Shown here piece by piece: positions 30,253 to 31,562 of a stretch of DNA of 34,817 nucleotides. The stretch's first letter is position 1. Every line of letters begins with the position of its first letter. Origin of the DNA: Candidatus Omnitrophota bacterium (lineage in GTDB: Bacteria; Omnitrophota; Omnitrophia; Omnitrophales; Aquincolibacteriaceae); assembly GCA_023247035.1 (NCBI GenBank), contig JAHFHG010000023.1, positions 1-34,817 of the forward strand. The letters are read 5' to 3'. A model generated the notes under the pieces. It made no database searches, was not told the origin of the DNA, and saw only the letters and a list, made by a program, of their open reading frames with translations. Position numbers and translations under genes: made by a program.

Positions 30253-30465
30253 ATGGAAAGAACGGCGGTCCGCTCGCGCGACATCGCGATTGTGGGATAT
30301 GATGAAAAGGAATCGGTTCTGGAAATCACTTTCCGGGGCGGCGGGGTTTATCAGTACCAAGATGTCCCTGAGGCTGTTTACCGGGAGCTGATGGCGGCGC
30401 CGTCCCACGGGAATTATTTTAATGAAAAAATAAAAGATGTTTTTAGTTGTGGCAAAATAAGCTAA
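30253..30465 (+). CDS. KTSC-domain small protein
   Basis: 70 residues with a clear RBS (GGGAGG). The whole protein is one KTSC domain: RSRDIAIVGYDEKESVLEI, FRGGGVYQYQDVPEAVYREL, then GNYFNEKIKDVFSCGKIS. In this family a short beta sheet is followed by a helix and the FNxxIKxxY tail. Here the tail Tyr is Phe. Its function is unknown. The domain also occurs fused to, or next to, nucleic-acid enzymes. It follows hflX by 61 bases and may belong to that operon. Confidence 0.75.
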   Translation: MERTAVRSRDIAIVGYDEKESVLEITFRGGGVYQYQDVPEAVYRELMAAPSHGNYFNEKIKDVFSCGKIS

Positions 30466-30475
30466 TCTACTTTCT

Positions 30476-30597
30476 AACTTGAACTCTGCAGATTTCCGAA
30501 TTCATAGAGTATGACTCTTTGTAAGACAAGCGGTTGTCATTTCTGATAAAAACGTTAAAATGACAGAACGAGAAGCAAAATCTGCGGAACTCAAGTT
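30476..30597. repeat. 122-bp imperfect palindrome with two inner hairpins (MITE-like or structured leader)
   Basis: The outer arms are 30476-30495 and 30578-30597. Their 20 bases match 17 of 20 as an inverted repeat, AACTTGA and GCAGATTT being perfect. Inside are AGAGT-ATG-ACTCT (30506-30518) and TGTCATTT/AAATGACA (30535-30542 and 30558-30565). TCT flanks both ends, which could be a 3-bp target duplication. The stretch is AT-rich relative to its surroundings and has no coding frame. It could be a small non-autonomous element or an RNA with a three-way junction. No second copy was noticed in the window. Confidence 0.5.
30534..30561 (+). promoter_or_regulatory. Sigma-70-type promoter for sufT, inside the palindrome
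   Basis: TTGTCA at 30534-30539 and TAAAAT at 30556-30561 with a 16-base spacer, each one base off consensus. Both boxes overlap the inner inverted repeat TGTCATTT/AAATGACA, so the repeat could be an operator. The leader to the sufT ATG would be about 65 bases. Confidence 0.5.
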
Positions 30598-30632
30598 TCT
30601 AAGCCTATCATTAAGAAAAAGGATCGGGATTT

Positions 30633-31181
30633 ATGAACGCTAAAGAGGTCGCCACACTCAAGCGCACTTGCGAGGCCGTTGAGATTCCAAGCGGCAAAAA
30701 AATCACGCTCTTCGAAGGTACCGAAGTTATGATCACTCAATCGCTGGGCGGGGCCTATACGATCCTGACTTATCAGGGTGTGATGGCGAGCATTTCAGGA
30801 AAAGACGGAGACGCGCTCGGCAAAGAAATCCTAGACGCGCCTTCTGCTCCAGTTGCCGGGCAAATGAATCAGGAATGGATTGAGCAAAATGTGTGGGCGC
30901 AGCTGAAGACTTGTTACGATCCGGAAATTCCTCACAATATCGTCGACCTAGGTCTCGTTTACGAATGTCATATTACGGCTTCCGAAGACCATGACTATTA
31001 CGTAGGTATTAAAATGACGCTGACCGCGCCGGGCTGCGGGATGGGCGATTGGCTGAAGCAGGACGCCCGCAATAAAATTCTAAGTATTCCCGGCGTGAAA
31101 GAGTGCGCGATCGAACTCGTCTTTGATCCTCCTTGGGACCGCGGCAAGATGCACCCCGCCTTGCGCCGCGAATTGATGTGA
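30633..31181 (+). CDS. sufT: Putative Fe-S cluster assembly protein SufT (MIP18/DUF59 family)
   Basis: 182 residues. An N-terminal extension of about 80 residues (IPSGKKITLFEGTEVMITQ, LGGAYTILTYQG) is typical of SufT. The DUF59/MIP18 domain follows with DPEIPHNIVDLGLVYE, IKMTLTAPGCGMGDWLKQD with the conserved Cys at about 135, and ECAIELVFDPPWDRGKMHP. SufT helps mature Fe-S proteins, usually within or near suf operons. Here no sufBCDS genes are adjacent, so it is a stand-alone copy. AAAGGA lies upstream of the ATG. The YciH-like gene follows after 15 bases. Confidence 0.9.
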   Translation: MNAKEVATLKRTCEAVEIPSGKKITLFEGTEVMITQSLGGAYTILTYQGVMASISGKDGDALGKEILDAPSAPVAGQMNQEWIEQNVWAQLKTCYDPEIPHNIVDLGLVYECHITASEDHDYYVGIKMTLTAPGCGMGDWLKQDARNKILSIPGVKECAIELVFDPPWDRGKMHPALRRELM

Positions 31182-31196
31182 AGGCTCGAAGGATCG

Positions 31197-31562
31197 ATGG
31201 AAAATTCCCGCCTCGTTTATTCCACGGATCCCGCGAGGAATAAGAAATGTCCGAAATGCAAGTTTCTGGTTTCTGAATGCGAATGCCTTAAAGCGGAAGC
31301 CTCTCCGCCGGATATTAAAAAACCGTCTGTAGTTTTAAAAATTGAGCGGCCGGGACGGGGCGGAAAGGCAATCACCGTCATCGAAGGCCTTGCGCGGAAT
31401 CATCCTTACCTTCAAAATTTTTGCCGGAAATTGAAAATCCGGTGCGGGGCGGGCGGGACTTACCGGATCGCCGCGGAAGGCGGAAGGATTGAAATTCAAG
31501 GCGATCAGCGTGAAACCCTCCGCCTGATTCTGAAACAGGAAGGGATTCCCTGCAAAGGCTAA
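31197..31562 (+). CDS. yciH: SUI1/YciH-type translation initiation factor
   Basis: 121 residues. The N-terminus (18-30) carries four cysteines, CPKC and CEC, a probable small metal knuckle. The SUI1/eIF1 domain covers about 45-120: VLKIERPGRGGKAITVIEGL, then LQNFCRKLKIRCGAGGTYR and IEIQGDQRETLRLIL. Bacterial YciH can affect start-site choice at initiation. It is of normal length, with RBS GAAGGA close to the ATG. Its stop overlaps the stop of pncA on the other strand by 4 bases, so the two converge tail to tail with no room for a terminator. Confidence 0.9.
   Translation: MENSRLVYSTDPARNKKCPKCKFLVSECECLKAEASPPDIKKPSVVLKIERPGRGGKAITVIEGLARNHPYLQNFCRKLKIRCGAGGTYRIAAEGGRIEIQGDQRETLRLILKQEGIPCKG

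Follow-up and report, generated by a model that had tools for sequence, protein, structure and literature searches.

In the window (the whole 34,817-nucleotide stretch that was analysed), a nested palindrome lies between two genes on the + strand. The upstream gene (30253-30465) encodes a 70-aa KTSC-domain protein (Pfam PF13619, E 7.9e-24) and ends 12 nt upstream of the element delimited below. The downstream gene, sufT (30633-31181), encodes 182 aa with an FeS_assembly_P domain (Pfam PF01883, E 5.8e-14) and begins 37 nt downstream of the element. A SUI1-domain gene (Pfam PF01253; window 31197-31562) follows directly, and the genome of origin, G000 (1,849,925 bases in 64 contigs), contains a second relative of the FeS_assembly_P gene at G000:C22:12910-13152.

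The earlier note had described the palindrome as a 20-bp outer inverted repeat enclosing two further perfect hairpins. The 20-nt outer arms were present at 30476-30495 and 30578-30597, but they are imperfect, with 17/20 positions complementary (85%). Both inner hairpins proved perfect: AGAGT-ATG-ACTCT at 30506-30518 (+ strand), read off the sequence and paired in folds, and the TGTCATTT/AAATGACA pair at 30535-30542 and 30558-30565. We also found the promoter-like TTGTCA (30534-30539), 16 nt and TAAAAT (30556-30561) on the + strand, at 10/12 matches, and the stretch is AT-rich as had been noticed (62% vs 49% across the window). The TCT flanks that had been pointed out exist, as a piece of a longer direct repeat, TTTCTAA, with exactly matching 7-bp copies at 30471-30477 and 30596-30602 (+ strand). 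The AA/TT at the outer tips of the 20-nt arms is part of this direct repeat and lies outside the element. The element itself spans 30478-30595 (118 bp, + strand), and its own arms are 18 bp long (30478-30495 and 30578-30595) and complementary at 15/18 positions. Its left terminal inverted repeat, CTTGAACTCTGCAGATTT (30478-30495, + strand), differs from the family end CTTGAGTTCYGCRAATTT at 3 positions; the right one, read inward as CTTGAGTTCCGCAGATTT (30578-30595, - strand), differs at 1.

The outer repeat alone was only moderately unusual. Arms of 20 nt that pair at 17 or more positions across a gap of at most 110 occur just once in the window, and 2/20 order-1 Markov simulations of the window also contained a comparable pair. 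The predicted RNA fold of 30474-30600 was better than 200/200 dinucleotide shuffles on the + strand (z -4.5), and on the - strand 2/200 shuffles equalled it (z -3.1).

A search of the same genome for further copies, which the earlier note had suggested, yielded 15 two-ended copies and a number of fragments. The window element gave 23 matches at E <= 0.001 (counting itself); as five long copies were matched twice, these fall in 18 elements. The end pattern, with up to 3 mismatches, occurred at 50 places in this genome compared to 13 for a reversed control. The 15 delimited copies are 109-235 bp long, and partial copies and solo ends occur besides; the window copy, aligned with the 14 others, is of the short form. 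In one copy (C3) the left end is eroded, which counts against the MITE reading. Pairwise identity among the copies over shared columns was 77-97% (mean 87%), so the family is not a recent burst, and the window copy is 80-88% identical to the others. At the small hairpin (30506-30518) most short copies read GGAGTATCGCTCT. One near-solo end, CTTGAGTTCCGC at G000:C58:15333-15350 (L041), has AAATTTTAA on either side, as a deletion that collapsed an element might leave it.

As expected of MITEs, the copies are short and lack a transposase gene; their internal ORFs are short and consist of element sequence. They also have terminal inverted repeats, target-site duplications, multiple copies and ends in common with an autonomous element. 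By a mechanical ORF reading the copies are intergenic, with overlaps limited to short ORFs of element sequence, a few bases at ORF termini, or the extended start of a 152-aa ORF (C14). We saw no interrupted genes at the insertion sites, with neighbours judged by eye from the ORFs. A search in plasmids gave no match to the MITE. Among 57 relatives plus the own genome, the whole window element matched the own genome alone, which indicates that its interior is narrowly distributed at that search sensitivity.

We assessed insertion from target duplications and from gene spacing. Exact duplications of 6-8 bp were present at the predicted boundary in 11/16 two-ended elements (the 15 MITEs and one IS remnant), compared to 0/240 mismatched left-right flank pairs. 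The duplication was inexact or absent in the remaining 5/16, which counts against the MITE reading. An empty site at the sufT locus was not found among 11 relatives, where gene order differs and KTSC never precedes sufT. In one relative, L097, a partial KTSC match was seen beyond sufT. The family genomes available for this locus numbered 27, none of them a second species of the genus. Because no empty site was obtainable at sufT, we used another copy for the spacing test, C45, a 117-bp element between a bamA-like and an ompH-like gene (names by eye). The gap between these genes is 170 bp in the own genome and 46 bp without the element (117 bp) and one copy of its 7-bp duplication. In relatives (26 loci) the estimated gap was 14-128 bp, and 14-51 bp in 20/26; in 6/26 it was estimated at 85-128 bp, long as well, which counts against the MITE reading. 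The relatives show unoccupied bamA-ompH spacing, a comparison of gene spacing and not of a base-exact empty site.

A candidate autonomous partner was found in a genome of the same order, G038. It contains two elements with the same ends (1261 and 1237 bp), which enclose transposase ORFs of 401 and 370 aa. The best Pfam match of these transposases was DDE_Tnp_1 (E 6e-20 and 7.9e-19). Their best NCBIfam match was IS701 at 140.5 and 139.7 bits, under the curated cut-off of 150; the best IS4 model scored 101.8 bits where 250 are required, and the IS1634 model 30.7 where 100 are required. The complete YREK motif, Y-(2)-R-(3)-E-(6)-K, was present in 4/4 transposases read. The ten plasmid matches listed for the transposase had 23.9-25.8% identity, with 9/10 annotated IS701, and a solved-structure search returned no useful match. 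Neither intact G038 copy has an exact boundary duplication of 3 bp or more. Transposase matches at E <= 0.001 occurred in 11/47 genomes of the order, several of them weak and perhaps to other DDE transposases.

We observed no intact transposase in the own genome, the assembly of which is 92.8% complete, and this counts against the MITE reading. The only two matches at E <= 0.001 were fragments within C33:1063-1243. They lie inside a decayed IS at G000:C33:956-1344 (389 bp) with family ends and an 8-bp duplication. Its nucleotide identity to the IS is 75-81% in the longer matching stretches, and over 19 bp its right end is identical, when read inward, to the MITE consensus left end. Solo ends at C20:31121, C64:6375, C13:75718 and C58:15333 were considered as ends of an intact IS; the ORF lists at the first two show no transposase by eye, and the genome-wide transposase search gave the C33 fragments only. 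The probable partner IS codes for an IS4/IS701-like DDE transposase and was left unassigned within this group; its scores fall below the NCBIfam cut-offs of both families. The MITE copies would have been mobilised in trans by a transposase of the G038 type that the own genome would since have lost or that its assembly lacks. The outer hairpin is the terminal inverted repeat, the two ends that such a transposase would recognise.

Overall, the nested palindrome is almost certainly a MITE copy, a non-autonomous 118-bp DNA transposon that entered the KTSC-sufT interval and duplicated TTTCTAA there. The earlier note had listed a MITE among its options, and this was the right one, given the genomic copies, the target duplications, an IS that shares its ends, and the unoccupied gene spacing seen at bamA-ompH. 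The family is new and of a kind already known, with a probable IS partner in Omnitrophota. Among the matches listed from the open-access full-text literature, none reported MITEs in this phylum.

The earlier note had also considered a structured RNA and an operator bound by a regulator of the Fe-S or redox type. An operator of sufT, bound by a dimeric repressor on inverted repeats, would fit the position upstream of an Fe-S assembly gene and the symmetry of the repeat. We compared the 300 nt upstream of sufT in the 11 relatives with a full-length match (of 25 with any match). In 11/11 this region neither matched the element nor contained a 20-nt inverted repeat of comparable quality, so the palindrome was shared by 0/11. 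The 14 other two-ended copies adjoin other ORFs, including bamA-ompH and enolase (by eye), and transposon ends explain the symmetry. On this distribution we rejected an Fe-S regulator operator and give this reading practically no credence. A conserved structured RNA of sufT (a riboswitch or leader) would account for the strong + strand fold (z -4.5). It is likewise absent upstream of sufT in the 11 relatives, and it showed no Rfam match at gathering thresholds. Its covariation score was 0.128, compared to 0.122 for shuffles (177/500 as high; 7 short copies). We dropped this reading as extremely improbable, lacking as it does an Rfam match or covariation beyond shuffles. The idea of an Fe-S operator or RNA ahead of sufT was a false lead, and its place is taken by a MITE family with its probable IS partner.

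We next considered whether the MITE affects sufT. Among the 15 two-ended copies, the promoter-like sequence (30534-30561) is found in the window copy only; the best same-strand site in the other 14 scores 7-9 of 12. Its TAAAAT arises from a substitution and an extra A, both private to the window copy. The 701-base region contains 2 promoter-like sites compared to 0.7 expected. The ends of Correia elements (NEMIS, Neisseria) differ from those of the window MITE. Correia elements resemble it in being short, multi-copy, mostly intergenic MITEs with terminal inverted repeats, and they can carry sigma-70-like promoters and be cleaved as mRNA hairpins (PMC10969869, excerpted text). They differ in that the window family has a promoter in one copy only and any function of the window MITE is putative. 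The Chunjie MITE of Geobacter uraniireducens is alike by description, with size variants of 178-235 bp, conserved ends and insertion inside an operon (PMC10969869, excerpted text).

With this precedent of MITE-borne sigma-70-like promoters, with 10/12 matches, in the right orientation and near the start of sufT, the MITE could have been co-opted as a sufT promoter. Transcription would then start near 30568 and produce a leader of about 65 nt holding the right arm only. Against this, the 10/12 site occurs in 1/15 copies, its -10 depends on the private changes, the site count in the region is 2 where 0.7 are expected, and the upstream KTSC gene is co-directional and may share a transcript with sufT. 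We consider such co-option unlikely. A slightly better, still improbable alternative is that the MITE hairpin, within a KTSC-sufT read-through mRNA, alters processing or stability by analogy with RNase III cleavage at Correia elements (precedent in PMC10969869, excerpted text). The element does lie between co-directional genes and a long stem would form, but the pairing has no covariation signal. Judging from the aligned copies, the promoter-like sequence most likely arose by chance, through changes confined to this one diverged copy. Taken together, the palindrome is of an ordinary kind and its internal promoter is probably accidental.

To place the partner IS, we compared it with described families, for which we drew on part of one source (PMC2266710). 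IS701 provides the best NCBIfam model for the partner transposase, and the plasmid matches listed are mostly annotated as IS701. The duplications of IS701 are 4 bp, however, whereas elements with the ends described here have 6-8 bp (PMC2266710, in part). IS701 elements are also longer, at 1.4-1.55 kb compared to 1.21-1.26 kb for the partner IS (PMC2266710, in part). The YREK motif characterises IS4 and is lacking from most of IS701, where 4/27 elements have its tyrosine (PMC2266710, in part); the transposases read here carry it complete in 4/4 cases. Duplication lengths are 4 bp in IS701, 5-6 in IS1634, 7-8 in ISPepr1 and 8-13 in other IS4 subgroups (PMC2266710, in part). The IS4 subgroup ISPepr1 resembles the partner in YREK, 5'-CT ends, an AT-rich target and a 7-8 bp duplication (6-8 here), but is 1.5-1.6 kb long (PMC2266710, in part). 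IS1634, with AT-rich duplications of 5-6 bp (PMC2266710, in part), is likewise close in duplication length, but its profile score was far below cut-off.

The inner inverted repeat of the window copy (30535-30565, + strand) appears to be the remnant of a nested GTCATTCCCG...GAATGAC repeat, the GC-rich middle of which is retained in long copies. We observed extra GC-rich sequence in 8/15 copies where the window copy has only GTCATTTCTGATAAAAAC. Exact direct repeats GTCATTCCCG flank this module in C8 and C14, and repeats with one mismatch do so in C59. Recombination or slippage between the direct GTCATTCCCG repeats would yield the short form seen in C45, C20b and C10b. The GC-rich stretch had 14 matches in the own genome: 7 in two-ended copies, 1 in the partial copy C11 and 6 elsewhere. 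A recognisable MITE end pair was found around 0/6 of the latter. At least two of these six (L235 and L237) retain a GTCATTCC...AATGAC frame. Another, L234, also keeps a stretch resembling the ACAAGCGGTTG of the MITE and may be an eroded MITE copy. Similar GC-rich stretches were present in at least 15 other genomes of the phylum; the tally of 16/384 genomes is a lower bound, because only 2 candidates were scored per genome. Because the module occurs without MITE ends elsewhere, in the own genome and in the phylum, the MITE seems to contain a second repeat of independent origin (GTCATTCCCG - GC-rich module - GAATGAC), of which the inner hairpin would be what is left. Four examples of the GC-rich repeat had strong predicted folds (z -4.4 to -7.6), and an Rfam scan of these four gave no overlapping match at E <= 1. 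This GC-rich hairpin repeat, GAAATGCGAAGCATTTC ... GAAATCGCTCCGCGATTTC, stands alone in several Omnitrophota genomes and is the inner module of the long MITE copies; sites include L220:1490-1585, L221:1490-1585 and L223:1490-1585. Own-genome module sites include L235 (C49:29250-29353), L236 (C30:9000-9073), L237 (C42:7163-7265) and L238 (C52:32490-32554).

We also assessed the distribution of the ends across the phylum. In a search of 384 genomes, own included, the end with at most 1 mismatch was present in 24 genomes. We counted 34 ends in G000 and up to 19 in other genomes, while the reversed control gave at most one in any genome. The exact end CTTGAGTTCTGCAAATTT occurred in 28 stretches of GTDB species genomes, 21/28 of them from Omnitrophota; the approximately 7 chance matches estimated for this 18-mer at even base composition equal the number outside the phylum. 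The 18-bp ends together with 6-8 bp duplications provide a signature for annotating such elements.

We examined 20 stretches from relatives. Ten had two ends and readable flanks, nine were single-ended and in one (L137) a flank was masked. The ten comprise the two G038 IS copies and eight MITEs of G033, G036, G037, G041 and G043. Exact duplications of 6 or 7 bp were present in 5/10, with neither IS copy among them, which counts against the MITE reading. In the control, 4/90 mismatched flank pairs also reached 6 bp because the flanks are AT-rich and alike. By sequence reading, not clustering, 7 of the eight MITEs have interiors unrelated to that of the window MITE, with CCCTCTCCC-type palindromes. 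The interior of the eighth (L136, from G041) resembles its GTCAT...ATGAC frame. The cargo types are thus the GTCATTCCCG...GAATGAC repeat with the GC-rich module (own genome; similar in G041, L136) and the CCCTCTCCC type (G033, G036, G037, G041 and G043). Similar ends around unrelated hairpin repeats in other Omnitrophota were a mild surprise. We tentatively suggest, short of favouring it, that the MITEs of Omnitrophota form a swarm, mobilised by IS4/IS701-like transposases, whose closely similar 18-bp ends enclose unrelated cargo. The ends may have repeatedly captured pre-existing intergenic hairpin repeats, and the MITEs may not have arisen solely by internal deletion of an IS. Such capture, if true, bears on the origin of bacterial MITEs. 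The CCCTCTCCC-type elements with closely similar 18-bp ends are located at L128:402-614, L129:1544-1779, L130:1487-1643 and L131:1544-1720, and more elements of this type at L134:1459-1613, L135:1505-1653 and L138:1557-1708.
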